Source: Antedon bifida
Taxonomy: Eukaryota; Echinodermata; Crinoidea; Comatulida; Antedonidae
NCBI GenBank assembly: GCA_963402885.1
Contig: OY727097.1
Span: 12,586,001 to 12,650,000, forward strand
DNA length: 64,000 nucleotides
Direction of reading: 5' to 3'
The notes under the pieces: model-generated
The model's input: only the letters and a program-made list of their open reading frames with translations
The model's database searches: none
Told to the model about the DNA's origin: nothing
In this document: piece after piece, positions 34,701 through 63,930 of the stretch
Layout: every line of letters begins with the position of its first letter
How positions within the stretch are numbered: the first letter of the stretch is position 1
Position numbers and translations under genes: made by a program

Positions 34701-37700
34701 GTTAAATGTCTTATTCTTTTAATTGATCCTACAGTAACAACTGTATGCAACAGTTTAAGCGGTTTAATGAAATAGTTTAAAAAAAAATTAAACCACTTTA
34801 AAAAAAACAGTAAGGTAACATCTATTAGGCCACAATTTTACCATGGCTAATTTTTAAACATTACCAAACCTAAACTCAATATCACCATATTTTGAGTTTC
34901 ACAATATCCTGTTGAAAACAAATTGAAAGCATCTGTTAATGTTTCTATCAGTAACTTTTCACTTATCCTTACAGACAGTATAGACCCTCAACAATGCGTG
35001 TTCACAGGAACTATGTGTGTACAGTTATATACCAGTCAAACAAAAATACATCTACGCAATAAAATATATAGGACACTGTTCCCAACTGCAAGTAGCAAAC
35101 AATCAATCAACAAAAATTGATACGATATAATATAATGTGCTTACTCTTTTCTTAAAAGAGAATTGATAGTAGAAGTTTTTCCAACATTCTCAAGTCCTAC
35201 AAAAATAGTTCTTCCTTGATTAAACTCTGTTTGTCCTTCTTCAAGTGCATTTTGAAATGCTTTCACCGCATCAGGTCCGCTTGCCAATATCTCCTCTGGA
35301 ACATGCATTTCTTAAAATAAACAAAATAAATTATTGTATAATTTCCTACTTTCATTTTTTCATGGAAATTCTAAATATATTGGTATCTGAAATAAATGCC
35401 TGTCATTGGCAGAAAATACAGTACCAACTCGTTATTTCACTAGGCTATTAAACAAGAAAACTGAGATCTAGACAACTCAAATATATCCATTCTTAATCAG
35501 AGGGATTTAAAAAATAGTGTATACCTTTATAAAATATTTCATTGCAGTGTTATAGATTAGGGTTTGCATAATTTTATTAATGTTTTGATTTAATTATTAA
35601 ATTTACTATATTAGCTCAATATTATTGTTATTATTTATTTCATTTCATAATTTTATTTCTTAAATAATCCCAATTTGATTCTATTAAAAAAATGTTAAAG
35701 AATATAATGTGATTTTAAGTAAAAATCTATAATCTGTTTTGAAGAAACTTGCATTAATAACAATCATTGGCTAAGAATTTACTTATATTGTTATTTATTT
35801 TACTTTAACAAATAAACAAGTAAAAACAAGACAATGTGAAAATTACAAACTAAACCTATTTTAGATAAGTGGTTTTTCATTTAAGTTTTTGTGATATTAC
35901 AGCTGGACATACCATATTGTTTCAAGATTAGTTATCAGTTGATTTACACTTGTTTACAGCCTACCTGTTAGCCTACTTTGCTAAACTCACCTTTTAATAT
36001 GTCAATTATCTCGGCTTTTTGACCTGCCCTTAATTCGTTGTCATATTTCTTACACGCATTTTCATTGTAAAAATCTATTACAGATTTGCCATACTGTGTA
36101 AATTAAAAATGAATATTTTATGTAAAAGAATACATTTTATTTTATTTATTTTTAAATTTTTTGTTTACATTATTAATCAAAATAGGAATCGAGTCATACT
36201 GATACTGATTCTAATGTATTCTAAAAAAAGACCACGTCCTGTAATAATGTCTGCACGTTTTGTTACATCTTCTAATTTGGTATATAAGTATAATTTTCAA
36301 TCGATTATACAAATTATTATGACAATATTTAATAGGGGCCTATAATGCAAATAAATTAAGAATATAAAAACAATAACAATACTATTGTTATTGTTTTTAT
36401 ATTCTTAATTTATTTGCATTAATTATTAAATTAGGCCTACATAATTATAACAAAAACTGTATACACAATTTAACAAAAACAAATTATCATTTTTAATTTA
36501 AATACTAATTACGTAACCTAACTTTATTTAACATTAAACCAACCTTATCTTCTTTTGAAACGTAAGATTTACCGGAACATTCCTTCATTAGATACACAAT
36601 GATGGCTATGTGTTCGTTGTACGTGAGATCTTGTGCGACACATGCATGCAGAAGTGTGCGTTTATCCTAGTAAATAATAATATGGTATTTTGTATAAAAT
36701 ATAATTTTGATTTGTTAAATGTTAAAATGTTAAATGTATTATTACTGGTCCTCAAGTTTAACTGGAAACTGAGGAATTTCGGATTAGGCCCTCCACGGAC
36801 CCACGGCAGCCAGCAGTGCAGCGCCTACCAGATCAGCACACCGGGAGACGATCCCCTCTCTTTTCGAATATTGTGCCAAGTTCTTTAACGTGCACTGTTA
36901 AGTACACGGGACCAACGGCTTTACATCCCATCCGAAGTACAAGGCAATGAGAGTAAAGCATCTTGCCTAAGGATGCAATTAGTATGGTACAGATAACCTC
37001 GAACCCATGCCTATCACATGCTAGTCCGATAGCACTATTGCACCATCACTCTCTGGTGTATATACAGCACCCGCCGCTATTTCTAGACGGTCTCCCATTC
37101 AGAACGCAACCGGGCCCAATGTTGTTTAACTTCGGTGATCTAACGAGAACCGGTGTTTCAACGCAGTATGGCCGTATATCTTAACATATATATGTTAATT
37201 ATTGAAATAAGTAATTAGTATCTTCATCACATAAATAACACAACACAATGACGTCAGATATTTGTCGTTTTGGTTGTGAACGCAGTGGGTTTTCAGCAGG
37301 AATTGAAAAGTGTAGATAGATCTTTCTATAGATATTTATATTCATAATGTTTACATGATTAATGATGATGGATCCCATTACCTGTCTACACAGTGTACTA
37401 TACGCTTTTTTCACACAACTGTAGGCCTTCTGTTTTTTTAAAATTCACTTTCAGATTACGATTTATACATGGCTCCTATTGAGAAGACACGTGATGCACT
37501 TGTACTGACATAGCGGTTTATATATAGTAGTGTTAACCACTAACGTAACACAAATCATCCACTAATGTAAAAGTAACCACTAACGTAACACAAATCAACC
37601 ACTAACGTAACAACAGTTTAACCACTAACGTAACCAAATTTAACCACTAACGTAACAACAGTAGAGATGTTAAGAAATCTTAGGCAATTTTTGTTTTGGA

Positions 37701-40124
37701 AGTTGGAAAGCTAGGACTCAAGTCCAGTCACGTTTGTCTGTACCTCAACTATCAATTTTTGGTTAAACAATGGTGTCAAATGGAACTAAATTAAAACATT
37801 TGTTTTCTATCCTTCAAAACCTTTAGACGTAAGGGTCTTAATTTTAAGCTTGAAATGTAAATTCCAATCTTAAAACTTCAGCCTATTTTTCCTATTTTGA
37901 ATCATATGTTTGTCTGTGTGAGTGTCCGTCCGGCTATCAATACTGTAACCGTAAGACACACTAGTTTCCGTATGAAAAGTTGGAGATACCTTATTGTGAT
38001 GAAAGCCGTGGCATTTACATGCTTATCTGTCTGTTTGTCTAACAATACTCTTACTTTCAATGACGTGACACGATTTTCTCTCAAGTATATGCTTTGATTA
38101 TGCTTTTCTGTCAATTTATGCATATTCAACAATACATTGTATATTGAATTATATATATATACAAGTCTAAAGGCTAAAAATGAGAAAATAATAATAAAAA
38201 ACAGAATGATGGACGGACAGTCGGACAGATAATCATAGACACGAAAGAGGTTCAATATCAATAGGGGCCTACATTTGAGGAAATAAATCATGTTGAAAGT
38301 AACAACTTTCTCATACAGTTATTAAAAAATGAGAATTTACTGATGGACGGACACTAAGACAATTTTGTGAAGGAAAATCGGACTAAATTGTTTTATGTCC
38401 ATAATATTTCTACTACTGTTGTTACGTTAGTGGTTAATGTTACATTAGTGGTTGATTTTTGTTACGTTAGTGGTTAATGTTACATTAGTTGTTGATTGTT
38501 ACGTTAGTGGGTGATACAGGACCTAGATGGTTAAAGTTTGCACAATACACAACCACACAGTTGTATTTATTTTGTATTTTGTGTGTACAAATACAGGTGG
38601 TAAAGATAACATGTGCGATTCATCGTAATCTAAAAACAAGTTGTGTGCAAACAGTAAAGTAGAATAATGTCAAACGGAGTCCATCACAAAATAAAAAGTT
38701 AATACAGATGATAACGAATGATTACAAAAACAGAAACCTCGAAAACAGCGACGAAACCCAGGGTCTCTGGTTTCGAGATTTGTTTAAAACATAGACCTCA
38801 ACACAATCTTCTCATTATTAGGCTATAAGGTTTTCGATATTTCCCGAATACAAAGACCCCCTCAAATGTTATCAATACTATGTTATAGGGGTATGTTGAA
38901 CTCACAAATTACTCACAGTACATAAATTAAATGTTATATTCAATCTAATGAAGTTTTTGAAGTACCGATAATAGGACTTTATACCGATGACATTGTTAAT
39001 TGGTTCATTTCTTTACCTTTTTTAAATGGTGGTACATCTTTTAGATCGAGAAAACTATAAAGAAAGTATGTATATACCCATGACGTAGAATTAGCGTTAA
39101 ATAATTACGGAAGAAACAACTATTAATTCATTCGGTCTTTGTTATAAAGGAAGAGGCAGATAGAGTTAAAAGAAAGAGAATCAAGGAAACGCGCGTGTTT
39201 TAACGCGAATTCAAATGGCTTTTCCTACTCTACAAATGACATCAGAGAGAATGCATTGATTGTGTAAATATAAATTATCTATAACAGCACACCTTGCTAT
39301 TCATTTGATTTCACAACGATTAAAAACATAGTCCAACATCGTTACGGGCGTTCTTACAGTAAATATTTACTGGAAATAATATCGCATTAGTCGATGTCTT
39401 CAGCCGTTTTTCATACAGTATTCCATAATTTTAGGATGAAGTTTGCTGTTAGAAAAGCGACACTGATGCAGCTGTTTATGGCATGATAGTTGAAGCACGC
39501 ATATATTAGGCTTGATTTATAACTTTCGTTATTAACTTATTTTGTGTTAATTTCAATAAAACATCTATGAGTCTTTTCAAGCTTCTCTTACATTCGTTAC
39601 AATACACTTCTCACTTCGTGGATACAATATTTATATTGTATAGTTTAATAGACCAGCTTCAGATTGAGATAGGTGCCACCCGGAAAGGACAATAATGACT
39701 CAATGTTTTCTTGGGTCCTTACATGTGTATGAACAGAAAGGTTGCAGGAAAACGCACATTTTGGGGTGGGTTGGGGTGATAATCCAAAATTGCCACCAAA
39801 ATAGTAAAATGTTAACAAAAAATACATTGTTGTCAGTAAGTATTGTCTTGGAACAGAAATGAGACCATTGATATGATCACATACCCTCTGTGAACTATCA
39901 TCACGCATATTTGTATAATGATACCATGCTTTAAATTTAGTAGTGACCACCATTTAATCAAAATCAAATCGAAGTGGTTTGAAATTACACATAAGACACT
40001 GAATATTATTGTGTAAATGACTTACGTGGTTCAAATGATTTACGTCTGCTCCAGAGTTGATGAGATACATACATGTACGCACGTGACCCTTAGCTGCAGC
40101 TACTATAAGAGGTGTATTCCCGTC
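23152..40124 (-). CDS. DAPK1-like ROCO protein: ankyrin-Roc-COR-three death domains (5' end missing)
   Basis: Twenty-one minus-strand exons join in phase to about 1,158 codons ending at TAA 23152-23154. In transcript order: 40124-40026, 36666-36544, 36093-35991, 35310-35145, 34288-34185, 33905-33786, 33628-33515, 33054-32876, 30519-30430, 30155-29997, 28777-28532, 28170-27985, 27613-27458, 27364-27083, 26617-26537, 26079-25863, 25724-25587, 25315-25265, 25173-24898, 24574-24251, 23414-23152. The layout is ankyrin repeats, Roc GTPase, COR, charged linker, three death domains. Ankyrin-Roc-COR-death is the order of DAPK1 after its kinase. No kinase is seen, and the first exon and promoter are not found; upstream exons may lie beyond 40124 or outside the window. 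Likely a cytosolic signalling scaffold in apoptosis or innate immunity (family inference). Three death domains instead of one is unusual. Confidence 0.88.
25863..28777 (-). CDS. ROCO gene, COR domain exons
   Basis: Exon 28777-28532 is the Roc-COR linker (ELFTIENSLPF). Exons 28170-27985 (FLEYLHDIGEILFYPDDKIL) and 27613-27458 (LWRNLNGGKLDEKLLRHIW) are COR-A. Exon 27364-27083 is COR-B (FHDFDGYLPDDLFQRVTTKF). Exon 26079-25863 closes COR with a Cys-bearing segment (YIPCVCGSKGEHTHMH … VLPCGSRG). COR is the dimerisation module that always follows Roc in ROCO proteins. Confidence 0.82.
27679..27804. repeat. Pogo/Tigger-like MITE in a ROCO intron
   Basis: CAGTAAAACCTCTTCTTTGG opens and, about 100 bp on, TCTTCCCTTAATGGGAGTGC followed by TACAG closes in the opposite sense. 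A TTAAGAGGACAC block lies inside. The ends resemble those at 3005-3045 and 63604. Family inference only. Confidence 0.45.
29507..29532 (+). repeat. Poly-C tract, 26 bp
   Basis: An unbroken C run preceded by CTCTCT, in the 28778-29996 intron of the ROCO gene. The same intron has a segment present twice, CCACCTGATTACATAATA at 29222 and CCACCTGATTACACAATA at 29875, each beside a GTTTCGTAAA-type block in opposite orientation, so a small element spans about 29190-29900. Length may be unreliable in the assembly. Confidence 0.9.
29997..35310 (-). CDS. ROCO gene, Roc GTPase exons
   Basis: Exon 35310-35145 carries the P-loop (FVGLENVGKTSTINSL). Exon 33054-32876 carries the switch II motif WDFGGQ. Exon 30519-30430 holds the beta-strand VSYAVVCVVFNL. 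Exon 30155-29997 holds IMLIGTHYES, the position of the base-specificity motif THxD, here THYE. Between P-loop and switch II, exons 34288-34185, 33905-33786 and 33628-33515 insert a Ser/Pro/Lys-rich stretch, longer than in compact Roc domains. The domain should bind GTP/GDP; G1 and G3 are intact, G4 is degenerate. Confidence 0.85.
30957..30995. repeat. GC-rich 39-nt hairpin ending in CTAG
   Basis: ACTAGAGGGTTCGCTCGC, loop TTT, then GCTCGCGCACCCTCTAGT: nearly perfect arms and strikingly GC-rich in an AT-rich intron. A hairpin with CTAG beside it recalls a Helitron 3' end, but no matching TC start was found. Confidence 0.7.
32100..32300 (+). promoter_or_regulatory. CpG-rich promoter-like patch with NRF-1 site and possible first exon
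   Basis: TGCGCATGCGCA at 32110-32121 is a perfect NRF-1 palindrome, followed by ATTACGTCACC (CRE-like, about 32137) and TCTCGCGCGACG, all CpG-dense in an otherwise CpG-poor intron. An ATG at 32219 opens 26 codons (MTVSKCEICDDDEEDVGRDI…YEKLE) ending at 32296 before GTCAGT, a usable donor. This may be the start of a gene nested on the opposite strand of the ROCO gene, but no second exon was identified. Confidence 0.35.
35991..40124 (-). CDS. ROCO gene, ankyrin-repeat exons
   Basis: Exon 40124-40026 is exactly 33 codons, phase 0 at both ends, and is one ankyrin repeat: DGNTPLIVAAAKGHVRTCMY … NSGADVN. Exon 36666-36544 continues with a looser repeat (RTLLHACVAQDL … IVYLMKEC), and 36093-35991 gives YGKSVIDFYNENA, a capping-like end. 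The one-repeat-per-exon layout lets repeats be gained or lost without frame damage. Large introns (36667-40025 in particular) hold a SINE, a fold-back element and a duplicated block. Confidence 0.85.
36344..36420. repeat. Perfect 37-bp-arm palindrome
   Basis: AATGCAAATAAATTAAGAAT through ACAAT pairs perfectly with the mirror half, leaving a 3-base loop. It is AT-rich and lies in a ROCO intron. It would be extruded or folded easily; a tiny fold-back MITE is the simplest explanation. Confidence 0.92.
36775..37181 (-). repeat. 5S rRNA-derived SINE (SINE3-like), minus orientation
   Basis: From 37181 down to about 37066 the minus strand follows 5S rRNA closely: ACGGCCATACTGCG, ACCGGTTCTCG, ATCACCGAAGTTAAAC, GGGCCCGGTT, ATGGGAGACCG, CGGGTGCTGTA. 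This includes the internal Pol III control region. It continues into a non-5S body with CTTGTACTTCGGATGGGATG, AAAGCCGTTGGTCCCGTGTA and GTGGGTCCGTGGAGGG. Better preserved than the copy at 11430. Ends of the body are approximate. Confidence 0.85.
37536..38512. mobile_element. Fold-back element with tandem CCACTAACGTAAC arrays in its ends
   Basis: The left end has five to six units of CCACTAACGTAAC separated by CACAAATCA or AACAGTTTAA spacers (37536-37660). The right end has five inverted units GTTACGTTAGTGG (38419-38512). The inner borders GTAACAACAGTAGAGAT and ATTTCTACTACTGTTGTTAC also pair. The roughly 750-bp middle has no recognised protein. The structure of long tandem-array inverted ends matches fold-back transposons. 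Confidence 0.75.
38882..39580 (+). repeat. Dispersed block, copy 1 (pair with 41309-42559)
   Basis: Starts GTTATAGGGGTATGTTGAAC and ends CATCTATGAGTCTTTTCAAG. About 320 bp at the start and 175 bp at the end match copy 2 at roughly 95%. Copies lie either side of ankyrin exon 40026-40124 in the same orientation, about 2.43 kb apart. No coding potential recognised. Confidence 0.85.
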
Positions 40125-41308
40125 CTGAAAAAAAAAGTATAGTACTTTATACAAAATATAATAGGTTGCTGATAGAAGATGCGATACTTGGAGTATGCCT
40201 AATGCACATTTATAAACTACTTGTACAATGATAGTAAACCTTCGCACACGAGTCGCAGATAATTGGCATAATGAGTATAGTTTTAGTCTTATACTTTTAA
40301 CTCTATTTTGGTTTTGCTATTCTGGTACCAGGAATACGGTAGTATATAAAATTAATTAAATAAATAAAACAAATTAAAATTAAACCAATTACAAGAGGTT
40401 AGAGAAAAGGTTTCTTCTATGTGTGAAAGCAATTATTATATATTTAGCCAGCTTCTAATGCTGTATTTGCCTCAGACAGATTACCTTTCCTCTGGTGAAG
40501 GCGGGCACTACACGAGAAGAGCTCTTGATTAATGTATAGGACCAAGCAAGGTGCTTAAACAGTCTTGGCTTAGTCATCACAACAAAACAGAGAACATATT
40601 ATAATTTCACTTAACAAAAATAAAACGGTATAACTTTTTCAAGATTCAAGCGACTCGCTTCGATTTGACGCTTGATAATGATATGAAACCTTTGGCAATG
40701 CAATAAGTACGTTTACCCAACTGAGAAAACATAATTATTAAGTGCCAAATACTGTACCATGACCCCTTAAGAAAGGGTTACAGGTCAATATATGTCCCAC
40801 TGGACATAATTAACATAATGAGTACACATATGAAACCAATCCTAAAATGTGTATTTTTAGAGTCAACAAAAGATTCGTCATTCTTATGTGTCAACTCGTC
40901 CTGTACCTAGTACATTTAAGAAAGCCATTAATTACCGCTATTTAACATTTTAATTAGCATAATCGAGTATATCAATAGAATCTTCGGCAATACCCAACTG
41001 AGACAACGTAATTCTTCAGTGCCAAATGCTGTACCATGGCCCCTAAGAAAGGTCAGTTTCTGTTGCAAAAAAACTTGATTATGCATAATTAGTAGCCTTA
41101 AAAAATGATAAAATATTTAAGTTCAGTGTCTACCAAAAGATTTATCTTTCTTACATGGCAACTTCTGTCAACTTATTTCACTCAAGGAAGCTGCTAATTA
41201 ATAATTATTATTAATTAATAAACTTAACTTAACAGGAAGAAAAATCGTAAACTCTAAACTTAAGTATATAGAATGCTTCTCCCTCTACAATACATTTTGG
41301 AGTTATGT

Positions 41309-42559
41309 TATAGGGGTATGTTGAACTCACGAATTACTCACAGTACATAAATTAAATTTTATATTCAATCTAATGAAGTTTTTGAAGTACCGATAATAGG
41401 ACTTTATAAATTATACCGATGACATTGTTAATTGGTTCATTTCTTTACCTTTTTTAAATGGTGGTACATCTTTCAGATCGAGAAAACTATAAAGAAAGTC
41501 TATATACCCATTACGTAGAATTAGCGTTAAATAATGACGGAAGAAACAACTTTTAATTCATTCGGTGTTTGTTAAAAAGAAAGAGGCAGACAGAGTTAAT
41601 AGAAAGAGAATCAATGAAACGCGCGTTTTTAGTCGCGTGGACGCGACTCTATAGTTCACTATGTCGGTCGGTTGGTCGGTCTGTCTGTCTGTCTGTCGGT
41701 CTGTCTGTCTGTCTGTCGGTCTGTCTGTCTGTCGGTCCGGTATCACTATGCGTTTTATCGCTTTCTGACCTTATCTTGATATCAGTTTAATCTAGCTAAG
41801 TCAATTTTTTACAGAATATTCCTTATGGCCAGGAATCGATGTGGTTATGTTTTCACGGTGCGCAATAAAAAATTACGCGGTCTACGCATGATTTAACGAA
41901 ATCATGTTTGTAATCATATCTTCACAACCATGAATCACAATTAAATAAAATGTGGTACTCATTTTTCAGGGCATAAATCATCATATGGCAATACAATTAC
42001 GTGCGTAGCGCATGTAACGCATGCGTACGTGCGCTCAAAATTTTCAAAATTTATTTTCGATGAAATAAGAGTACGTTTCAGGCGCGTTAAATGTTTTTGC
42101 GCACTCTTTTTGCCCCATTTCTGTTTTCTTGACTTACTTTTCAACTCGAAATTACGTTATGCGAGCATGTCAAAAGTGACAGGCTACGCACGTGTAAATT
42201 AAAAAAATATAAATGTTTTTAAACATTTCAACATTTTTAAACATGTTCAGTAATTTCGGTCAGTATAGTTCACTATGTCGGTCGGTCGGTCGGTCTTTCT
42301 GTCTGTCTGTCGGTCTGTCTGTCGGTCTGTCTGTCGGTTCGGTATCACTATGCATTGTAGCACGCAACTTAATGGCTGTTGGCCTTGTTCATACAGTATT
42401 CCATAATTTTAGGATGAAGCTTGCTGTTAGAAAAGAGACACTGATGCAGCTGTTTATGGCATGATAGTTGAAGCACGCATATATTAGGCTTGATTTATAA
42501 CTTTCGTTATTAACTTATTTTGTGTTAACTTCAATGAAACATCTATGAGTCTTTTCAAG
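41309..42559 (+). repeat. Dispersed block, copy 2, carrying a GTCGG-type insertion
   Basis: Same borders as copy 1, but its middle is replaced or interrupted by about 750 bp of the GTCGG/GTCTG family (41623-42390). No second ankyrin exon is found at the matching offset. Confidence 0.85.
41623..42390 (+). mobile_element. GTCGG-repeat element, copy A
   Basis: Order: hairpin GTCGCGTGGACGCGAC, then ATAGTTCACTATG, a (TCGG/TCTG)n array (41661-41740), a core of about 450 bp with CpG-rich runs, then ATAGTTCACTATG and a second (TCGG/TCTG)n array (42275-42341), ending near TTGGCCTTG. The same core in opposite orientation makes copy B. Non-autonomous; superfamily unknown, with a layout recalling microsatellite-bearing Helentron-type elements. 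Confidence 0.75.
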
Positions 42560-44352: not shown

Positions 44353-45207
44353 CAATAATCACCCGATTCTGTAGCTGTTAGTACACTCAGTGTGGAAGAC
44401 TGTCGACAGTCTGCCAGAGACCTGTCTGACTGTATTAAGTACTTTTAATACACGATATCGCTGTCATTAGGTTCATATCTATAGACAATTTGTAACGTTA
44501 TAATATGTATTCAATATAAAATCCACTCGGCAACCAGAATAGTATTAGTAGCAGGTTTATCGTATTGCCATGCATGGATAGGTGTTTTCCGCCGCTTTTA
44601 GGTCTTCTAGGCCTAGGCCTAGGCCTAGGCTAGTCAATTATTGTTATTGATTATACGAATTACGTAATTAGTTTAGTAGCTCATCTACCTTTTTAGCAGG
44701 GCATAATGAATATCGTAGCTAGGCTAGGCCTACTAGCGTCAAATCAACCAATTATTTGGGTGGTAGTAGTGGTACACGAGTTTAGGGAGTTAAGTACGAG
44801 TTGGCATGTACGAGTCGACCAGGGGGTGAATCGACAGGGTACACCTACTAGAGCATAGGCTATAGTCCTGCGAGAATGGGAAATCTGGCCTAGATAGGCA
44901 TAGGGTATGCCCAAAAAAAGCTATCCTATCATATCCTATGAGCATAAAAAGGCCTCGTAGAGCCAGAGGTGTTAGCCTACTATGGATCACTGATTACCCG
45001 GATCACTATTATTTAGGCCTAGCTAGCCTAGGCCTAGAGTTAATTTTAAATTAAGTAGGTAGGCCTAGGCCCCAGTAAGTTCGGTCGCGTTTTCGGCCTA
45101 TTTTTCAGGAAATGTGAGAGGTTAGGTGGGTTAGCCCAGCTAGGCTAACCTAACCTGTAAGTAGTATTCTAGCCCATCCATGATGGGTACGGGTTGGCAT
45201 TTGTACG

Positions 45208-45745
45208 GGTTGACCCGTATCTGTATTCTAGCTAGGGTGCTGGTCAACCCGTACCCATGCCAACCCAACTTGGTTAACTCGTACCCAAATCATTGGTCAA
45301 CTCGTACCCAAATCATTGGTCAACTCGTACCCAAATCATTGGTTAACTCGTACCCAAATCATTGGTCAACTCGTACCCACTTGGGCTAACCCGTACCCAA
45401 ACCAATTCGTATGTAATATAAATATACTTTTAATAGCATTCGGCATTAAACATAGGTACGGGCCAGCCCATGATTAGTACGAGTGAGCCAAAGTGTTGGG
45501 TTGACCCGTATCTGTATTCTAGCTAGGGTGCTGGTCAACCCGTACCCATGCCAACCCAACTTGGCTAACTCGTACCCAAATCATTGGTCAACTCGTACCC
45601 AAATCATTGGTCAACTCGTACCCACTTGGGCTAACCTGTACCCAAACCAATTCGTATGTAATATAAATATACTTTTAATAGCATTCGCCATTAAACATAG
45701 GTACGGGCCAGCCCATGATTAGTACGAGCCAGCCCATGATGGGTA
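45208..45745 (+). repeat. GTACGRGT-rich subrepeats in the left fold-back arm
   Basis: A 290-bp segment beginning GGGTTGACCCGTATCTGTAT at 45208 recurs at 45498. Inside, a 23-bp unit (CGTACCCAAATCATTGGTCA + ACT) is repeated four times in the first and twice in the second. The octamers GTACGGGT, GTACGAGT and their inverses recur many times over 45180-45810 and in the matching part of the right arm (51890-52370), where only one segment is present. Confidence 0.85.
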
Positions 45746-45891
45746 CGAGTGAGCCAAAGTGTTGGGTACGAGTAAACCAAAATTTGGGTACGGGTTGACC
45801 TGTACCCTTCTAGCTAATCGTACTAGGCCTCGAGTAGGTCTACGCTAAAGTCCGGCTACAATAATGGTCTATTCTGTTTATAGCTTTATTG

Positions 45892-45950
45892 ATAGCTGGG
45901 TTCAAATCTGGATTGGGACGGCTTTTCCTCATTCTAAAACAGATTTATGG
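45892..45950 (+). repeat. tRNA-SINE fragment, left fold-back arm
   Basis: GGTTCAAATCTGGATTGGGA then CGGCTTTTCCTCATTCTAAA and ACAGATTT follow the T arm and start of body of the SINE at 16937. The inverted counterpart is in the right arm at about 51748-51800, so the SINE piece was in the arm before the arms were duplicated or homogenised. Confidence 0.6.
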
Positions 45951-48900
45951 AAGGCAATCGCCGCCAAAAATACAAAAGTAAAACAAACAACGTACTTTCA
46001 CGATTTCCTTATCATAATAAAATAATATATGAATTTAACTGTAATATTGTATACATAGTAATTGCCATTGCATATATTATTATTATATATTATAAGGTTA
46101 GGCTTTATTTGCTCTTATGCTTATTTCCTCCAACGTACAGAGTACGTAGGGCTTCCAATTTGCTTTTATACCTGTTAATTTAAAAATCGTTTATGCCTAT
46201 TGTTGCATAACGTTCAAATTTAGACTGTAAATACTGGGATGATCACCCTAAATTTTCTTTTTCAATTAACAATTTTATATTTCACAGCTAGAAAAAAGCA
46301 TACAGAGTTTTTTTTATTCATAACTGTTGAATTGCATCCCAATACATGGTACCTATTGGTATTATATCTATAAATATAAAGTACTCTCTTATAAATAGAT
46401 ATCCAAACTACTCCAACTACCTAATCTAATAATAGTACTATTAGCATACTACTGTACACTTTGTAGACAAGAAATAAGTTGTATCCACCTAGAGGACTTA
46501 TGGTAGTACTGTACAGTCGATCGTCCTCTCACTGGCCCGGTCAACATAATCTACGCCTAGATTATTACAGTAATTAAAATACATATTTACAGAGATTTTT
46601 TTTTTTTTTGCAGAAAAGTTATGTGTAGAGAAAGCAGTACTCGTAATAAAAACTAAGCAGGTTGTACTCTTGAACGCAAACTGGCAGGATATTTTAAATA
46701 TTTTTTATTGTTGAAATGATGGAATCCTAACGTCATTTTCCACGAATTGGAGACAAAGACATATTACGATCCTTTTATTTAAATTTATTTGGATAGACCT
46801 CCATGTAAATTCATTAAAGGCTATATGATTGTTTTATATTTTAATATGTGATAGTAGAAAATCATTGTGCATAATGAGGACTAAGAATCTAATATTTACT
46901 TGCATTCTCATCTTTTTAAAATTGTATTTATAATGCTGGTAATGAGTTTACTATTGAAAAAGTCATGTTTCCACTTATCTCAAATTGTGGCACACCTCTA
47001 ACCTTGTTAGAACTGACTGTGTTCTACATTATTCTGCTATATAATAGTGCTTCCACCATACTTCAACCTGGTAATTGAATAAATTTCACCGGGGTAAAAT
47101 TTAAACTAATTATCATCCTTTAACATAAAGTATCCTCCTAAAACATGTATTTGTACTGTACTTCATCTAATATCCATTACTTAATACTAATTTGGGTGAT
47201 TTATGTCTAACTTCAGGAATGATCTGAGGCTAGAAAAACGAATTTCTGTACATATAATTTATATAAAAAATAAACCAATGTTTTCCTAATAACTTAACCC
47301 CTAGGTTGATAACTAACAAAGAAATTATTGAAATTGTGTTCTTACAATATAGGTGTACTGTATCTACATATGCATACTGCGTTGAAAAGAAGAATGTTTT
47401 ATAGTTATTATAGGTTATTTCCAAATATTAAAGGTCTGATATCTAACAGAAACTAAATGTTACCAAACTATGTTTTTGAAAATCTTTATGATATAATAAT
47501 TATAATAATATGAACATAATATTAAATTATATTGACTATTTTTGATAATCATCATGTCCTTATAAATTCATTTATATTTATTTTGTGGTAATATAGTTTA
47601 TATATTATGTATTAAATAAATTGGTAAGGCCCTATACTGTTTATATTTAAGGAAAGTTTATAATACACTATTATTTTATGCCTACCAATATTAGTATTAA
47701 TTGTTTATGTAACTATTTTGTCTAATTGCATTGAATTTTTGTATAGGCCAATGGCATTAACGTTTTTCTCAAAGTAAATTAGCCTAATAATGCCATATTT
47801 AGACACATAATTCATTGATTTCTGATATTCTGTACTTGTGTATGCATTACTAAAATAGTAGTAATTTTATTACTTTTATAATGTATGTATAAACATTTAT
47901 TCATTTTTTTTTTTACATTTTTAAATTTAAAAATTATTAAAATACCTATCTACCTTTCTGTTATTGTTACTATTATAATATTTTTTGAGGCAGATTGATT
48001 TCAATAAAAAAAATTTAAAACAATTAATTTGACTTATACTGTACTATGTTAGTTCAGGAGATGAAGTGTGTGTGGGCAGAATCTGGTGTGTTGGGTGTTG
48101 GTGATGTGAGGTGTATTTTTGTCACTTTAAGACCTAAATTAGATGTTTTCTGAAGAAAAGAAGTAAGCGGATAGGCTTTCAAACAACTTCAAGAAGATTC
48201 ACACAGAAATAATTACTTCCCAATAAAATAGTATGTAACAGTTTATATTACAGTACGTTGAATAAACTCGAGCGGAAAAATAACACACATAAAAAAACAT
48301 TCATTTTCTTGTCGAAAAGCGCCCTCTCTAGTTTTCTATTAATTTATTAATAATTATTATTAATTAATGAGTAATATAAACATATTTTTAACATTTAATG
48401 CTTGAAGCTGATTCTACTCATAACAAAGTTTCATACCTCCAAATTTCATGAACGTATTCAAAGCACTTCAATAAATATACCATTGAACATTAAAAATTAG
48501 GGTTATGATAGAATTTTGCTTAAAAACATATACAAAAAACATCGATAAAAAATACTTTTCGAATTTAAAAACATTTGAAACTTTTTTAATATGTTCAATA
48601 TAGGTTGCTCTATTCACAGAAACAAAATTTCATTCATGAACGGTTTTTTTTCGTTGTTTTTTCAAAATCGTTATTAGGTTTAAAAAATGCGTTGGAGTTG
48701 TATGATCTTTCATAAGTGTACATTTTGTAAAAACGTAAATTTAAAAAATCAGTGATATGGCTCGATATTTATTTATTTTTTGCAATATGGATGGAGCAAC
48801 CTATATTGAACATTTCTACCAAGTATCAAATGTTTTTGAATACGAAAAATATTTTTTATCGATGTTTTTTGTATATGTTTTTAAGCAAAATTCTATCATA

Positions 48901-51900
48901 ACCCTAATTTTTAATGTTCAATGTGATATTTATTGAAGTGCTTTGAATACGTTGATGAAATTTGGAGGTATGAAACTTTGTTAGGAGTAGAATCAGCTTC
49001 AAGCATTAAATTTTAAAAATATGTTTATATTACTCATTAATTAATAATAATTATTAATAAATTAATAGAAAACTAGAGAGGGCGCTTTTCGACAAAAAAA
49101 TGAATGTTTTTTTATGTGTGTTATTTTTCCGCTCGAGTTTATTCAATGTACTGTAATATACACTGTTACATACTATTTTATTTGGAAGTAATTATTTATG
49201 TGTGAATCTTCTTGAAGTTGTTTGAAAGCCTATCCTCTTACTTCTTTTCTTCAGAAAACATCTAATTTAGGACTTAAAGTGACAAAAATACACCTCACAT
49301 CACCAACCTCCAACACACCAGATTCTGCCCACACACACTTCATCTTCTGAACTAACATACTACAGTATAAGTCAAATTAATTGTTTTAAATTTTTTTTAT
49401 TGAAATCAATCTGCCTCAAAAAATATTATAATAGTAACAATAACAGAAAGGTAGATAGGTATTTTAATAATTTTTAAATTAAAAAATGTAAAAAAAAAAA
49501 TGAATAAATGTTTATACATACATTATAAAAGTAATAAAATAACTACTATTTTAGTAATGCATACACAAGTACAGAATATCAGAAATCAATGAATTATGTG
49601 TCTAAATATGGCATTATTAGGCTAATTTGCTTTGAGAAAAACATTAATGCCATTGGCCTATACAAAAATCCAATGGAATTAGACAAAATAGTTACATAAA
49701 CAATTAATACTAATATTGGTAGGCATAAAATAATAGTGTATATAAACTTTCCTTAAATATAAACAGTATAGGGCCTTACCAATTTATTTAATACATAATA
49801 TATGAACTATATTACCACAAAATAAATATAAATGAATTTATAAGGACATGATGATTATCAAAAATAGTAAATATAATTTAATATTATGTTCATATTATTA
49901 TAATTATTATATCATAAAGATTTTCAAAAACATAGTTTGGTAACATTTAGTTTCTGTTAGATATCAGACCTTTAATATTTGGAAATAACCTATAATAACT
50001 ATAAAACATTCTTCTTTTCAACGCAGTATGCATATGTAGATACAGTACACCTATATTGTAAGAACACAATTTCAATAATTTCTTTGTTAGTTATCAACCT
50101 AGGGGTTAAGTTATTAGGAAAACATTGGTTTATTTTTTATATAAATTATATGTACAGAAATTCGTTTTTCTAGCCTCAGATCATTCCTGAAGTTAGACAT
50201 AAATCACCCAAATTAGTATTAAGTAATGGATATTAGATGAAGTACAGTACAAATACATGTTTCAGGAGGATACTTTATGTTAAAGGATGATAATTAGTTT
50301 AAATTTTACCCCGGTGAAATTTATTCAATTACCAGGTTGAAGTATGGTGGAAGCACTATTATATAGCAGAATAATGTAGAACACAGTCAGTTCTAACAAG
50401 GTTAGAGGTGTGCCACAATTTGAGATAAGTGGAAACATGACTTTTTCAATAGTAAACTCATTACCAGCATTATAAATACAATTTTAAAAAGATGAGAATG
50501 CAAGTAAATATTAGATTCATAGTCCTCATTATGCACAATGATTATCTACTATCACATATTAAAATATAAAACAATCATATAGCCTTTAAAGAATTTACAT
50601 GGAGGTCTATCCAAATAAATTTAAATAAAAGGGTCGTAATATGTCTTTGTCACTCTCCAGCTCGTGGAAAATGAAGTTAGGATTCCATCATTTCAACAAC
50701 AAAAAATATTCAAAATATCCTGCCAGTTTGCGTACAAGAATATAACCTGCTTAGTTTTTAATACGAGTACTGCTTTCTATACACATAACTTTGATTTCTG
50801 CAAAAAAAAAAAATCTCTGTAATAATTACTTTAATTACTGTAATAATCTAGGCGTAGATTATGTTGACCGGGCCAGTGACAGGACGATCGACTGTACTAC
50901 CATAAGTCCTCTAGGTGGATACAATTTATTTCTTGTCTACAAAGTGTACAGTAGTATGCTAATTAGGTAGTTGGAGTAGTTTGGAGAGATACATCTATTT
51001 ATAAGAGAGTACTGTATATATCAAACTATCTGTGTTGGCCACTTTTTTTAGATATAATACCAATAGGTACCATGTATTGGGATGCAATTTAACAGTTATG
51101 AATACAAAATCTCTATATGATGCTTTAGTGCATTTTTCAGCTGTGAAATATAAAATTGTTAATTGAAAAAGAAAATTTAGGGTGATCATCCCAGTATTTA
51201 CAGTCTAAATTTGATACAACAAATAGGCATAAACGATTTTTAAATTAACATGTATAAAAGCAAATTGAAAGCCCTACGTACTCTGTATTTGGAGGAAATA
51301 AGCATAAGAGCAAATAAAGTCTTGACCACAGGGTGTAATTCACTATTTTAAATCAGTAGTATGACTGTACTTTTGTGTTGGACCATACTGTAATGTGGTC
51401 CAGGTTGACGGGCCAGGAATGATGGTAGTACCAGTATACCGTGTACTGTAGTTTAGCCTCAAGAAAATACCATGTAGTAGTTGGAGTAGTTTGGAGAAAT
51501 ACAGTAGAGATTTACGAGACTTGGTGTGTGATGATTCAGTATGATAATTTGTGCTGTGAAAGACAAAATTGTTGAATTGTGAAGAAAATATTGTAAAATA
51601 TAACAAGGAAATTATAGTTTTATACTATAGTATAATTAAGGGGTAACCGTATAATATATAATAATAATAATAAATGCAATGGCAATTACTAATATTATGT
51701 ATACAATATTACAGTTAAATTCATATATTATTTTATTATGATAAGGAAATCTGTTTTAGAATGACAAAAAGCCGTCCCAACCCAGATTTGAACCAAGCTA
51801 TCAATAAAGCTATACACAGAATACCATTATTGTAGCCGGACTTGGTAGCGTAGACCTACTCTACTAGGCCTAGTAAGATTAGCTAGAAGGATACAGGTCA

Positions 51901-52053
51901 ACCCGTACCCATGCCAACTCGTACCCAACATTTTGGCTCACTCATACCCTCATGGGCTGGCTTGTACTCATCATGGGCTGGCCCGTACCTATGTTTAATG
52001 CTATTAAAAGTATATTTATATTCATTAAAAAGATTCATTCGGTTGGTATTCCA

Positions 52054-52178
52054 AATAAAATATAATAGTTAATTATATCTCAACCGTAACAGTAATAGTA
52101 ATGGTAAATAAAATAATCGTTATTTACTAATACCGTATTACTATTACGGTTGAGATATAATTAACTATTATATTTTAT
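52054..52178. repeat. Hairpin MITE present only in the right fold-back arm
   Basis: AAATAAAATATAATAGTTAA … CTCAACCGTAA pairs with TTACGGTTGAG … TTAACTATTATATTTTAT. It interrupts arm sequence that is continuous on the left (about 45410-45430), with TTTATATT-like sequence at both borders. It inserted after the arms formed. Confidence 0.75.
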
Positions 52179-53160
52179 ATTTATATTACATACGGGTTGG
52201 TTTAGGTATGGGTTAGCCCAGGGTACGAGTTGACCAATTATTTGGGTACGAGTTAGCTAAGTTGGATGGCATGGGTACGGGTTTACCAGCACCCTAGCTA
52301 GAAGAATACGGATACGGGTCAACCCGTACCAATTCCAACCCGGGCGTACCCATCATGGATGGGCTAGAATACTACTTACAGGTTAGGTTAGCCTAGCTGG
52401 GCTAACCCACCTCACCTCTCACATTTCCTGAAAAATAGGCCGAAAACGCGACCGAAATTACTACTGGAGCCCTAGGCCTACTTAATTTAAAATGAACTCT
52501 AGGCTAGGCCTAGCTAGTAGTAGTAGTGATGCGTAGTAGGATAACACCGCTGGCTCTACGAGACCTTTTAATGCTCATATGATGGCTTTTTTTTTTGGGC
52601 GTACCCAATGCGATGGGGCGACTTTGTATTGGGCGACTTTGCGATGGGGCGACTTGACTGGATTCCTGTAGGCCTATGCCTTCTAGGCCTAGGCCAGATT
52701 TCCCATTCCCGCAGACCTATAGCCTATGTTCTTCTAGTAAGGCTAGTGGTTGTACCCTGGTCGACTCGTACCATGCCAACTCATACTTAACTTGCCTAGC
52801 CTCTACGATATTGAGTATGCCCTGCTAAAAAGGTAGATGAGCTACTAAACTAATTACGTAATTCGTATAATCAATAACAATAACTGACTAGGGATTCCCC
52901 TGACTAGAAGGCCAAAAAGCAGAGGAAAACGCCTATCCATTCTTGCATGGCAATACGATAAACCTGCTACTATTCTGGTTGCCGAGTTGATTTTATATTA
53001 AATACATTATTATAACGTTACAAATTGTCTCTAGATAGGAACCTAATGACAGCGATATCGTGTATTAAAAGTACTTAATACAGTCACACAGGTCTCTGGC
53101 AGACTGTCGACAGTCTTCCACACTGAGTGTACTAACAGCTATAGAATCGGGTGCAATAAT

Positions 53161-54474: not shown

Positions 54475-56745
54475 TCATGTTAATGAAAATGAGAAGAAAT
54501 TACAATAAAGGTGGGTGATTCCCACGAAAGATAAAAAAAAATATCTTTCGGTTCGAGCACGGGGGATTAGAAATTCGTTGGATTTTCTAAGGAGCATACT
54601 GTTAGAACGAGAATTAATAGGAAACCACTCTTTGATGGAATTGGAACAGACGCATCGATGTGCAAATTCTTTAAATAATTTAATTCTTCTCGTATCAAGC
54701 GTCTGAAGATTAGTACTTTTAAGTGCGTTAAGATATGTGTCGTTCCAATATAATCCGAAGCGCTCTTTTTTTAATTCGCTCAATTATGAGAGACTGTTTT
54801 ATAGTAATACAACTATGTAACGCTGTTGAGGCATTCTCGACAATAGGACGAACGTACCCCACATGAACGGCCACCAAATCGCAAGCAGAAACTCCAAATT
54901 AAACGCCTGAGACGATTAAGCATATAAAATCTACGGCTACTATTAGAAATCATATTGCTAATAAGAGTATCCCATCTTAAATTTGCTTGTATAGGGATAC
55001 CGAGAATTTTTATTTCATGCACAAAATCCACCAATTTACCACCTATAACTAAGTTTGGAGGATCAAGAGGGTGTTTTTGCTTTACATTTTGATGGATTGA
55101 GGTTGAGAAAGTTGTGACTAGCCCAGTTGTTATCTAGATCACAAACCTCAGAATCAACAAAAGTGGGATCGCTAGCACGACGGACCTCAACAAGGCTAAC
55201 ATCGTCAACATACTTAAATTTAGATGATTGGGCGTTTACGGCAGCATCGTTAATTATAACGTTAAAAATAATTGGTCCAAACTTAGTACCATGAGGGACG
55301 CCACATAAAAAGCGTTACCCATTCAGAGAGTTCGGAATGGTAACGAACTCTTTGGCGTCTGTTGGTAAGAAAGTCAACTACCCAGGGCAATATTTCATTT
55401 CGAACACCAAGATCAAGAAGCTTTTGGATTGTAAGCCTATGATTGACGGAATCAAAAGCCTTGGTGAAGTCAGTCGCAACTAACGTACCGACTGTGTTTC
55501 GTTCGTCAGAGCCTTTATAAAGAGTATCCAACATCTCAACCAGACAATGAGTTGTTGAAGATCCCTTAATTCCAACAAATTGATGATGATCAATTGCGGG
55601 GGGGGGGGGGGGGGGGATGTGGAGATATCGTTACCGAACCATTTACAAACAAACTCCTCGTAGACTTTTGCTAGAATCGACGTGAGGGATATAGGGCGAA
55701 GATTTGAAACAATAGCAGGTTTAAATTTAGGGATAGGTGTAATAGTGGCGTCTTTCCACATTTGAGGAATGGAACCTTGGGCAAGGAATGCATTAAGAAT
55801 ACTAGTAACAGGGACACTAAATTCGCATGCAAATTCTTTAATCAACTTTCCAGGACGTCCATCGGGTCCTGGGGCTTTTCTGGCGTTAATTAATAAGGCT
55901 GTGAACATTTCCCAGATCTGAATCTGTGGGGGTGGGGGGGGGGGGGGGGGGGATGTGGGGAAGGGTGGGATGTAAGGTTGGAAGGTATCTTATGGCGTTA
56001 AATCGGGCGGCTATTATGTAAGATTGAGGCAAAACTCTGATTGATTGCGTTAGCAATGGGGGACTCCGGGGACTGAAATGTTGGGAAGGGATTGTAATTT
56101 ATTGCTCATAATTTGGATTCCTTTATGCCAATTGGATGGATCATTCTCTTTTAAATTTTAAAGGCGGTCTTGATAAAAGGATTTTTTGATTATTTGATAG
56201 AGAAAATGATTTTGTTTCTAAGGAACGTTTTATTCTGGCAAAAGGTTACTTGGCGCTTTTTAATGAGAATCTTAGTTTCTGGGGTCATCCAAGATTTGTC
56301 ATTAGTATGCATTTTAGAAGTTTTTAGTGGAAAGTGAGTGTTAATAAATAATTGACTGTACGATAAAATAAATCAGCCTTAGCTTGGGGTGACTTAGCTT
56401 CTAGGACTTCAACCCAAGATTGGCCAGTTATCCACCTCCCAAATTCAAACATATGATGCTTAGGCATAGGTCTAAAAATATTTTTCCTAATAATACCCTT
56501 TAATTTAAGGCCGCTCGGGGCCCAAAAACAGTATTATGGTCACTATTACAAATTGGTGCACAAACAACTGGTTTACAATAAACGTTATTAATGTTAGTAA
56601 CAATAATGTCCAAAATAGCAAGTTCACGTGTAGGTGTCACGAACACTTGCTTCATAGAGTGAGCACGCATATACAGTTATTCTTAATAACGGCTTCTAAT
56701 TCGTCAATTTTGTTTGAGTACGGAGCGAGTGTTTGTAAGTAAAAC
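54475..56745 (-). mobile_element. CR1/L2-like LINE, internally deleted (LINE-1 of two)
   Basis: Minus strand, 5' end near 56745. It opens with SNKIDELEAVIKNNCICVLT (start of the endonuclease), then jumps to VFVTPTRELAILDIIVTN and SDHNTVFGP (end of the endonuclease), so most of that domain is deleted. A linker (KSWMTPETKILIKKRQ) follows. Reverse transcriptase blocks are APGPDGRPGKLI, LRPISLTSILAKVYE, ATDFTKAFDSVNH and PHGTKFGPIIFNVIINDA, with the active site FKYVDD near 55215. Then come KILGIPIQANLRWD and the C-terminal FGLYWNDTYLNALKSTNLQT / ARTERYFF block. Several frame breaks; two poly-G runs (55600-55616, 55937-55952). The 5' end abuts GTCGG element copy B. Confidence 0.85.
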
Positions 56746-56749
56746 AAGG

Positions 56750-57550
56750 CCATATACATGGCTGCAGTTGCGTGCTCAAGTTAGTGTTTACCGACCGACC
56801 GACCAACCGACTGAAATTGCTGAACATGTTTAAAAATGTTGAAAATGTGTAAAAGCATTTATGACAATGACAATGACAACTTTTTTTATTTTCTTTGTAA
56901 ATAAAGTAAATAAATTAACTTTTATAATTACAAAATTGATTTAACAAAGAAAATGGGAAAATTCTTGAAGCAGATGCTTATATTTTTTTAATTTACACGT
57001 GCGTAGCCTGTCACTTTTGACGTGTTCGTATAACGTAATTTCGAGTTGTAAAGTGAATCAAATATGATGACATTAAGGAAAGGTGGTAAAACAGAAATCA
57101 TGTGCAGTGCGCGTGCTAAAATCTGCGCACTCATTGCAATGTTTTAAACGCTTAAAATTGACTGAAACGTACTCTAATTTCATCGAAAAAAAATTAGACA
57201 ATTTTTAAAATTTTAAGCGCGCGTACACATGCGTTATATGCGCTATGCACGTAATTGTATTGCCATATGATCAAAAATGTCCTGAAATTTATGAGTACCA
57301 ATTTTTATTTAATTGTGATTCATGCTTGTGAAGATATGATTACAAACGTGATTTCGTTAAATCGTGCGTAGACCGCGTACTTTTTGATTGCGCACCGTGA
57401 AAAACATAACCACATCGAAAAATGGACTTAGCTAGATGAAACTGATATCAAGAAAAGGCCATATACAAGTTAGTGTTTACCGACCGACCGACCGACCAAC
57501 AAACCGACATAGTGAGCTGTAAAGTCGCGTTGCACGCGACTAAAAACAGG
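56750..57550 (-). mobile_element. GTCGG-repeat element, copy B
   Basis: Inverted relative to copy A: GGCCATATACATGGCTGCAG, GTTAGTGTTTACCGACCGAC and repeats, about 650 bp of core matching copy A in reverse, then a second GTTAGTGTTTACCGACCGAC array, GACATAGTGAGCTGTA and hairpin GTCGCGTTGCACGCGAC before TAAAAAC. Core homologies include GCGTAGCCTGTCACTTTTGA and ATTGTATTGCCATATGATCA. Confidence 0.8.
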
Positions 57551-57593
57551 TATAAGACCGCCAACGGTTTTGGGAGTGAAATGAAAAGTGTTC

Positions 57594-57840
57594 TTACCCA
57601 AATCCGCCAGATTCTTGAGAGATCATGTTTACATATATTAAATTGGCATTAGGCCTACGTATCATGGAGTTGGCATCACGAAAATTAGCGATATGTCCAT
57701 AGCACCAAGAAACAACACGTATTCTACGCTTAGTACCACGACGGTGGCTTCGTTTTCTACGTTTAACCCGCTTGCAGGTGGTACGCAAATAGTTCGTCGA
57801 GTTCACGTTGTTCCACATGTGCACTACGCTGCTCCCGTGG
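57594..57840 (-). CDS. Basic ORF fragment, possibly a LINE 5' region
   Basis: An open minus-strand stretch reads YLRTTCKRVKRRKRSHRRGT and KRRIRVV, then MIRRPNANLIYVNMISQESG. Arg/Lys-rich starts followed by an RNxNL-like block occur at the beginning of ORF2 in some CR1/L2 LINEs. It lies between the 3' end of the second LINE and the hairpin end of GTCGG copy B. Function not established. Confidence 0.3.
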
Positions 57841-59536
57841 TATGCATTTAAACAAGATACAAGATACAAGATAACTTTAATGTCAAATAGTCCATCAACG
57901 AAACATTTGAAATTGGTTTTTCTCATGGCAACTTAATATACAAATAGAATAAAATCAGTAAACTGTTAAAACACAAAGTAAAATACACAGAACTGTAAAA
58001 TATGTACAGATAAGGATAAATGCTATCAGGTGTTCAATGGGGGCTAATACACAGCCTTGTGGGGCGCCTGTGCTGACTTTGCATACTTTCTATCTTAACA
58101 TACTGTGGTCGTTCCCTAAGGTAACTGATAAGCCATAACAACATTTTAGTATTGACATTTAATTTATACAATTTATCGATAAGTAAGTGAGACTGGATAC
58201 AATTGAAAGCACTGGAAAAGTCAATAAAAGTTGATCTGATTAAAGATCTAGGCACATCAAGGTATTTATATTCGCTATCAGTATACACTATCACTGCATC
58301 ATCAACAACTCTGTTTTGACTATATGCAAACTGATTAACATCATTATCAATATCATCATTCGACATAATCATTTTAAGCATTATTCTTTCCAAACATTTC
58401 ATTGGATTTGGTGTCAAAGCTATGGGACGGTAATCGTTTAAGGAAGTAATTTGTTTAGTTTTAGGCAATGGTGCTAATAATGAAGTCTTCCAAATAGTTG
58501 GGATAACTCCAGTATCAATAGTACGTTGGAAAAAGTTGTAAATACTGGAGAGAGTTGGTGACTACAAAACTTCAGCACTTTATTGCTAATACCGTCAGGA
58601 CCCGTAGCTTTGTTCACATTAACACCTGAGAACACCTGCCCAACTAAAGTTTCATCAATACTTAAAATAGTGGATTCTTTATTGGTTTCGTTTTCTAATG
58701 ACCTAATGTTATCGCTAAAATCATGTTTATCAAATCGGCAGTAAAATTGATTTAGGTAATTTGCGAGTTTAAAATTAAAATTGTTAGTATTACTATTATC
58801 ATTACTTTATTTACAGTTAAAACCAGACATTGTTCGCATTGCCTTCCATGCTCCGCGGCTATCACAGTTCTTAAATTTATTTTCAAGAGTTCTACCATAT
58901 TCAGCTTTACCGGATTTGATTAACTTGTTGATTTCTTTTTGTTTCTGTTTAACAAGACTGCTTTTGTTATCTGCAAAAGCCCGTTGTTTCTCAATTAATA
59001 ACAGTCTTATGTTTCTCGACAACCATGGTTTGTTATTTGCGTATATACACTTTCTTGTATTTGATCGGGATCACATTTCCAACACAATATTTACATATAT
59101 TTACTCATTTACAGCAGTAGCATTAGTGTCGATATTATTATCGTCGAACACCGACCAGTCCGTACATTCGAAGCAACCGCGTAATGTATCCACTGCATCT
59201 TCCGTCTAGGCGCGGTATTCAATTGTGATTGGCTTGAATTGCTTAAAACGTTGTCTGTATTTCGGCAGCATACACATTGTATTATGATCAGATGCTCCTA
59301 GTGGCACTCGCGATTTCACATTATATTCACACCTAATGTTTCTGTAACATTTGTCTAAGATCGTAGTGCCTCTAGTTGGTTTGGTAATATATTGCACATA
59401 ACCCGGATAGCTAAAGCGGCATTTGTTAAAATCACCCAGTACGAGTTTAATGGAATCCGGTGATTTACTTTTCGAGATCGTTTAACCTGCGTCTTAGCTC
59501 TTTGTTTGCAATCACCTCATTTGCATTTGGGTGTAT

Positions 59537-61265
59537 CATGGATTAAAGAATAGAAGGATATGCATCGACGGTGACATCAAACGATTTTACAACGCGCTTG
59601 CCTATACTAAAGCACTGCTGCCAATCAAACAAACACGTTCATTGAACTCCGTGTCTCTAACCGCGGCCCTCTGTAAAACGCTGCGAATCAACTGTTACAT
59701 TTTTTGAGACCAAAACGTAACCATGTAGAAATCGTATGCGCAGCCTGAATGTTCTATTGACATGTCTGCGTCGATGATTAATTGACAACAAAAATATATT
59801 GCTGAACAATTCTGTTTTAGTTTCATCACAATCGGACTACGAAAAGTTACTTTTTTACGACTGGTAATTTTAAGTAGTTGGTAATATTAATAAAATATGC
59901 AATTTTTATATTTGAATTATCATTATTTGCCTGCCATCTTCTGTCATTAAAAATTGCGTTAATCTATAGAATATTAAATTATGCATTTGACCATGTATGT
60001 TGTTAGCGTGGCCGGTGTTCACACATACAACAATCGTGTTTTTAATATATGGCTAAGCAGTGGTTTCTTCATAAATCTCCTTAATTATCGATGTGATTAT
60101 TTTTAAATTGTAGTGCCTGGTGATTGGCTAGTGGTTATGTCATCCACATCACATCCAATCACCGGGCCTAATTGAATGAAAACAGCGATCCCTGATCCGG
60201 GATTGGCTGGCTATGTATAGTTGCGATACGTTACCCAGCGGTCGTTTTGAAAAGTACACGCAGGGCAAACTTAATCACGAACAAACGAAGTACCTATTAT
60301 TATTCACACAAGAAGTAAGACAACGGTATAGATCATGATTAAATGTTGTATCTACTACACTTAAAATTAGCAGTATCAATGTCGGCAAATCATATGGTTT
60401 ACTAGTAAGCCTAGAAGGCCTAGGCCTAGTATTCTTGCTGATTTTGTAATTTTACATGTAGGCTGAGACAACAAGTAGTTATTGTCTCAGATGTAGGGCT
60501 ACTACAGGTCATAACATGCTACTTTAATGTCATAAAAACATTAGCGAAGATCAATCGCGGCAGAAACCTATACTAATTACAATTATAGCATCTACAATTC
60601 TAAGCCAATAACAATATAGTATTGTTTTTATCTGGTATATTGATGAAGTAGGCCTACACTAGGGTCTTCACAATAACATACAATGTAATTTAATAACTGT
60701 TTTCAATAAAAATTATACTCAGTGGCTTGAGGCAGAGGCCTGAAGCCACTTGTTTAGGAAACCTAAGTGGCCCTCCAAGTTTCAAAGATCGAGGCCTGGG
60801 ACGTTTTTAGCATTTTCGACATATTTTATGCCTGTTCCTCTGGGCACTGCTCATGGGCCCCAAGCTTCAGGGCCCCTGGGTTTAGCCAGTAAGCGCACAT
60901 AGTCGTTACGCCACTGATTATACTGTTCAAATATGTATGAATACATAGGTGCAACAATATTTTCTATTTTCTAGATAGAAAATGAGCAATCACCAGTTGT
61001 GTCTGCAAACGATTTGTAGGCTATGTGGTAGCAGTAAAGTTTCTATGAAGGACCGGAAACCAAAGAACGCGCGAAAGAAGCGTAGCCAACAAGGTTAAAT
61101 GTCGTTGCACATGTGCAGTAAACAATATATTAGGCACGCGACCGTTTCGTTGTTACTATGCGGTTAATTAAACTGTAACATTGTGGGCGGTCCGCGGTCT
61201 GTCGGCGAGAGTCAAGGAACCCTTGATCTCACGTCGATTCATATCCTTCTATTCTTTAATCCATG
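59537..61265. mobile_element. 1.73-kb inverted-repeat DNA element inserted in LINE-2
   Basis: The terminal repeat CATGGATTAAAGAATAGAAG continues as GATATG-ATCGACG on both sides (about 40 bp with few mismatches). GGTGTAT flanks both ends (59530-59536 and 61266-61272), and removing element plus one copy rejoins the LINE frame as VYIHPNANE. CA…TG ends with a 7-bp (8-bp if GGGTGTAT is counted) duplication are compatible with P-like or related superfamilies. No transposase is recognised, so it is non-autonomous. It contains a hAT-like MITE. Confidence 0.85.
60720..60916. mobile_element. 197-bp hAT-like MITE with perfect 8-bp target duplication
   Basis: Starts CAGTGGCTTGAGGCAGAGGC and ends …GTCGTTACGCCACTG, giving inverted CAGTGGC ends. 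ATTATACT stands on both sides (60712-60719, 60917-60924). An 8-bp duplication and CAGTGGCG-type ends are typical of hAT elements. The body is GC-richer than its surroundings. Confidence 0.85.
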
Positions 61266-63812: not shown

Positions 63813-63930
63813 AAGGCCATTATACATGACTGCATTCACGTGCGCACATTTTAGTTAGTGTTTACCGACCGACCAACCGACCGACCGACATAGTGAGCTG
63901 TAGAGTCGCGTTTTGCACGCGATTAAAAAT
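63813..63930 (-). mobile_element. GTCGG-repeat element, copy C (short form)
   Basis: AAGGCCATTATACATGACTG, GTTAGTGTTTACCGACCGAC, ACATAGTGAGCTGTAGAG and hairpin GTCGCGTTTTGCACGCGA before TTAAAAATG. It is the end module of copies A and B without the core, showing that a unit of about 115 bp can exist alone. Confidence 0.75.

Follow-up and report, generated by a model that had tools for sequence, protein, structure and literature searches.

A giant two-arm fold-back element with an exact 7-bp target-site duplication in the crinoid Antedon bifida

Contig OY727097.1 of the crinoid Antedon bifida (NCBI GenBank assembly GCA_963402885.1) contains an 8.8-kb segment built of two long inverted arms. The question raised by this locus is whether the segment is a transposable element inserted in one piece and, if so, to which kind it belongs and what moved it. 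It was addressed in a stretch of 64,000 nucleotides (positions 12,586,001 to 12,650,000 of the forward strand), here called the window, within which all coordinates are given. The original prediction, made from the letters alone, had described a giant fold-back transposon without recognised protein. According to our analysis, the segment is very probably a fold-back DNA transposon with two arms, non-autonomous and mobilised in trans by a transposase of the cut-and-paste type; this confidence applies to the kind of element and its mode of movement, and is held apart from the question of superfamily.

The inverted-repeat element occupies positions 44360-53153 (8794 bp). It begins with CACCCGATTC and ends with GAATCGGGTG, termini of the CA...TG type, and is bordered by two identical copies of the heptamer CAATAAT (44353-44359 and 53154-53160, forward strand). 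Start, end, termini and flanking heptamers are all as originally claimed. The duplication is exactly 7 bp long, as adjoining letters rule out 8 or 9 bp, and identity of 7-mers between random pairs drawn from the window was found at a rate of 0.000315 (200,000 draws). A search with the 27-bp outer end, allowing up to three mismatches, revealed two sites in the window, corresponding to the two ends of the element, and none in 100 shuffles. An exact duplication at the ends of one inverted repeat supports the proposed insertion as a unit and, in its usual reading, shows that the element was inserted in one piece via a 7-bp staggered cut of the target. Long inverted arms comprising most of the element and a terminal target-site duplication, which characterise the fold-back class, are present, and so are internal tandem repeats, which are frequent in this class.

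The left arm is 4257 bp long and the right arm 4366 bp, and between them lies a central spacer of 171 bp (48617-48787), previously given as 183 bp. Outer and inner parts can be distinguished in both arms, at 44360-46100 and 46101-48616 in the left one (forward strand), and at 51645-53153 and 48788-51320 in the right one (reverse strand), where they are separated by a 324 bp long segment present in this arm only (51321-51644, reverse strand). The left outer part starts with the left terminus described above, the right outer part ends with the right one, and the terminal block 44360-44505 (forward strand) is 97% complementary to 53008-53153. Alignment of the arms had been proposed as a measure of their identity; performed globally, it placed 3606 identical and 297 mismatched pairs in 3903 aligned columns (92.4% identity), with a further 817 columns taken up by gaps. 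Inverted pairing is present along the element. The inner arms score 3890 bits, while shuffling the single bases of the right arm 20 times gave best minus-strand matches of at most 30.7 bits, in a search whose word size differed from that used with the real arms. The description of the whole 8.8 kb as one inverted repeat is largely correct and only slightly too strong, as the segment 45310-45655 barely aligns (52%), owing to unequal tandem repeats in the two arms and to an insertion in the right one.

The arms are long and similar, as stated in the original prediction, although their similarity is unevenly distributed: calculated over aligned columns, the outer part (44360-46100) reaches 84.8%, as opposed to 96.7% for the AT-rich inner part (46101-48616). 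Within the latter, blocks of 93.4% (46101-46750), 99.2% (46751-47662) and 96.5% (47663-48616) identity follow one after the other. The central block differs from its two neighbours with Fisher p values of 1e-10 and 4e-5, for borders taken from the repeat listing and chosen post hoc. This pattern suggests gene conversion, or exchange in which the two arms or different copies took part, beside differing mutation rates or selection as other possible causes.

Divergence of the arms also bears on the possibility that two arms of one family were joined in a chimera by ectopic recombination, with or without later movement as a unit. The identity level of the outer arms would fit such an origin, and chimeric copies have been described for Galileo (PMC3573991). 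In the Galileo chimeras reported there, the 7-bp flanks are mismatched, whereas those of the present element match exactly, and we regard a chimera as unlikely.

Two segments are private to the right arm. In 51321-51644, short stretches resemble 50967-50993 (96%) and 51135-51176 (76%), and the segment is either an old duplication in the right arm or the counterpart of a deletion in the left one. The second is a nested insertion of 165 bp (52023-52187) in the outer part, comprised of 153 bp that contain a 43-bp inverted repeat, and of one of two 12-bp copies of TATATTTATATT; these copies flank the insertion (52011-52022 and 52176-52187), and the left arm is uninterrupted at the matching place. 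Long arms around a short spacer are generally known as a form taken by palindromic assembly or library artefacts, and the original prediction had pointed to this danger. A mirror produced in assembly is contradicted by arms that diverge and by insertions found in one arm only. Considering 297 substitutions, arm-private indels, the one-arm nested insertion and the exact terminal duplication, an artefact appears extremely improbable, and on the letters of the two arms this worry may be taken as largely answered.

Two further candidate substructures were rejected. An inner palindrome of its own (46101-51320), lying within an outer one, was set aside, as no border duplication was seen by eye and pairing runs on outward, and the region was taken as belonging to the arms. 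The spacer as a structured element was ruled out, since the region 48610-48795 shows no unusual DNA fold (z = -0.03), and 89 out of 200 shuffles fold at least as well.

To assess coding content, 12 reading frames from both arms and the spacer were compared, with stops masked, to Pfam-A at E-values of up to 1. No match was obtained for 11 of them, while the remaining one, in the right arm, matched PF02444 with an E-value of 0.5 and 11.4 bits, compared to a cut-off of 27, and was taken as chance. A hidden transposase is thus not recognisable in these frames at the sensitivity of Pfam-A, and the claim that the element carries no recognised protein is borne out. Fold-back structure, duplication and empty frames together support the suggested very large non-autonomous element. 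As no recognisable transposase exists inside, an autonomous relative elsewhere would have had to supply it.

Modules of the arms differ in composition. Content of G+C is ~ 36-41% in the outer and ~ 25-27% in the inner arms, as determined in 2-kb windows, some of which straddle the borders. In the left outer arm, a 23-bp tandem unit is present in 4.8 and 2.5 copies, in stretches duplicated at a spacing of 245 bp, and these are accompanied by GGGTACG cores. This motif occurs 24 times in the window, with 22 occurrences in the two outer arms (15 in the left and 7 in the right; shuffle means 0.17 and 0.18). Based on repeat listings and the motif count, a subterminal repeat array was delimited at 45207-45803 (forward strand), which may represent a transposase-binding array. 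Subterminal arrays of GGGTACG are perhaps recognition sites of the transposase.

We propose that transposase of the autonomous relative would recognise the element ends, perhaps together with the subterminal GGGTACG repeats, and would move the element by cut and paste. Arms would have grown most likely by expansion of tandem repeats, together with capture of internal sequence when gap repair was aborted and switched its template. Exchange at a later stage, among the two arms or involving further copies, may have left the blocks of unequal identity. An origin by a fold-back replication step, suggested earlier, is possible.

Sea urchin TU elements had been named as the nearest known kind. They share long inverted-repeat arms with the element described here, and make 8-bp duplications. 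The placement next to TU is unsupported by our results, as 7-bp duplications and long repetitive arms are found in Galileo, and one published Galileo copy is nearly equal in total length, arm length and lack of transposase. This is copy 112 of D. willistoni, described as 9021 bp long, its arms measuring 4246 and 4680 bp, and without a transposase segment (PMC4168063). The present element resembles it in total length (8794 vs. 9021 bp), in arms longer than 4.2 kb, and in being without a transposase segment. Both also have direct repeats, stretches rich in A+T and insertions derived from other elements in their arms, and in both the flanking duplications are identical. Differences are in repeat units, 23 bp here and about 140 bp in copy 112, and in the target consensus GTATTAC, which is unmatched here. 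Galileo has a conserved terminal stretch of ~ 40 bp; in the present element, the termini were seen to be CA...TG. The element has the architecture of a two-arm Galileo copy and serves well to illustrate a type already known, since a copy of nearly equal size and build has been described in a fruit fly. The processes reported for growth of Galileo arms include tandem repeats, recruitment of inner sequence and nested insertions (PMC4168063, PMC3573991).

The original prediction could not name the family. This can be improved in so far as a Galileo-like build is identifiable, while the superfamily remains a guess. Duplications of Galileo are mostly 7 bp long, and a range of 7-8 bp is given for the P superfamily and Galileo (PMC4168063); the 7 bp found here fall within it. 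Ends starting with CA are shared with the zebrafish element Pdre2 (CATACCTGTCAAC in Pdre2; PMC10983969), which differs in its 13-bp terminal repeats, 8-bp duplication and own transposase gene. A P-superfamily element like Galileo is the leading candidate for the autonomous relative, although we put this forward as a tentative assignment.

Several points weigh against it. The assignment is drawn from one copy, namely from its architecture, its CA...TG ends and the length of its duplication. The Galileo target GTANTAC agrees, by eye, in 2 out of 6 fixed positions at this single insertion site, and the 15-bp target palindrome in 2 out of 15 positions at the same site, compared to a window mean of 3.9; in Galileo, the target motif is a preference and no strict rule. 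The THAP consensus TNNGGGN(A/T) (PMC3464256) was found 17 times in the left outer arm (dinucleotide-shuffle mean 10.8, largest 23) and 10 times in the right one (mean 7.7, largest 14), so that it is present, but without enrichment over the shuffles. Binding of the Galileo THAP domain has been measured at sites within arm repeats (PMC3688188). Duplications of 8 bp are made by the P element (PMC3706591) and by Pdre2, and because of that the 7-bp length is a sign of Galileo more than of P elements at large. In addition, MuDR is quoted, in common with its prokaryotic relative IS256, with duplications of 4-10 bp (PMC10045372), and a duplication of 7 bp is for this reason compatible with the Mutator superfamily as such.

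A non-autonomous fold-back element of the same kind could accordingly have been moved by a transposase of the Mutator superfamily (Phantom/FB-like), or by one of hAT. This explanation competes with the P assignment only, and we consider it possible, though somewhat less probable than P. Most fold-back elements seem to be members of Mutator (PMC4079207), and fold-back arms are combined with a Phantom-like transposase in Tm1 (PMC3169594). As described in these two papers, Tetris and Tm1 resemble the present element in that their arms are long and composite and include tandem repeats, frequently without any coding sequence. Duplications of 8-10 bp, mostly 9 bp, are reported for Tm1 (PMC3169594) and of 8-10 bp for Tetris (PMC4079207), as opposed to 7 bp here, and the end motifs CGGTTAA/CCTACCC of Tm1 differ from CACCCGA in our element. 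Duplications of hAT elements are about 8 bp long (PMC3706591), and lengths of 8 or 9 bp are impossible at this site.

Length of the duplication would also suit Dada, for which 6-7 bp is reported (PMC3706591). In the same source, Dada elements with defined ends sat inside small RNA genes, and the families Dada-U6 and Dada-U1 are said to be without terminal inverted repeats. The closest match to a tRNA, rRNA or other Rfam family is ~ 7 kb distant from our insertion, and long terminal inverted repeats speak strongly against Dada. A Dada-type element is thus very improbable.

The window contains a number of other features. Matches to Rfam include two 5S rRNA-like sequences (37059-37179 and 11424-11537, both on the reverse strand) and two tRNA-like sequences (16937-17008 and 17582-17645, forward strand), the first of which is also called by ARAGORN, as tRNA-Asp with anticodon atc. 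Short palindromes, 80-99% self-complementary and possibly hairpin MITEs, were detected at 36343-36421, 16441-16528 and 12317-12399. A satellite array with a 44-bp unit (42.3 copies, 96% matches) extends through 20734-22588. Two pairs of direct repeats, 38879-39202/41304-41631 (93%) and 39403-39581/42382-42559 (97%), are separated by 2.4 and 3.0 kb, respectively, and lie close to GTCT microsatellites. An inverted dispersed repeat (41836-42264/56806-57418) consists of three pieces with 88-93% identity, and related pieces are located at 41625-41692, 57468-57547 and 63853-63929. Pieces of reverse transcriptase on the reverse strand (55066-58561) are probably broken non-LTR elements; Pfam RVT_1 was matched in two of five frames tested (55066-61692), once above and once below the cut-off. 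Gene-like traces are exon-like pieces at 12453-12698 and 15495-15752 (forward strand), which resemble sugar/MFS-type transporters, both below Pfam cut-offs, two adjacent exon-like frames with Death domain matches (23155-23580 and 24246-24617, reverse strand), an integrin beta cytoplasmic domain match (533-964, forward strand) and an ankyrin repeat match (39957-40316, reverse strand).

Searches were extended beyond the window using exact patterns. Viral contigs as well as bacterial and archaeal genome contigs contained no match to the 25-bp element end, and the viral ones likewise none to a 30-bp pattern taken from the repeats, as expected of animal-like DNA. Six strings from the element end and repeats gave no text match in literature whose coverage leaves out most subscription journals, and absence of the family from earlier publications is not claimed here.

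The locus presents a large fold-back element in which the pattern of arm growth described for Galileo is seen in another animal group, thus extending the known pattern. It is conceivable, although rather doubtful in our estimate, that it represents a Galileo-type branch of the P superfamily in a non-drosophilid animal, with GGGTACG arrays as putative multiple THAP-type transposase binding sites, arisen independently of the Drosophila elements or long before them. If the link to the P superfamily is true, such elements would have ended up with giant arms repeatedly, and the present copy would be a candidate site for palindrome-driven rearrangement.

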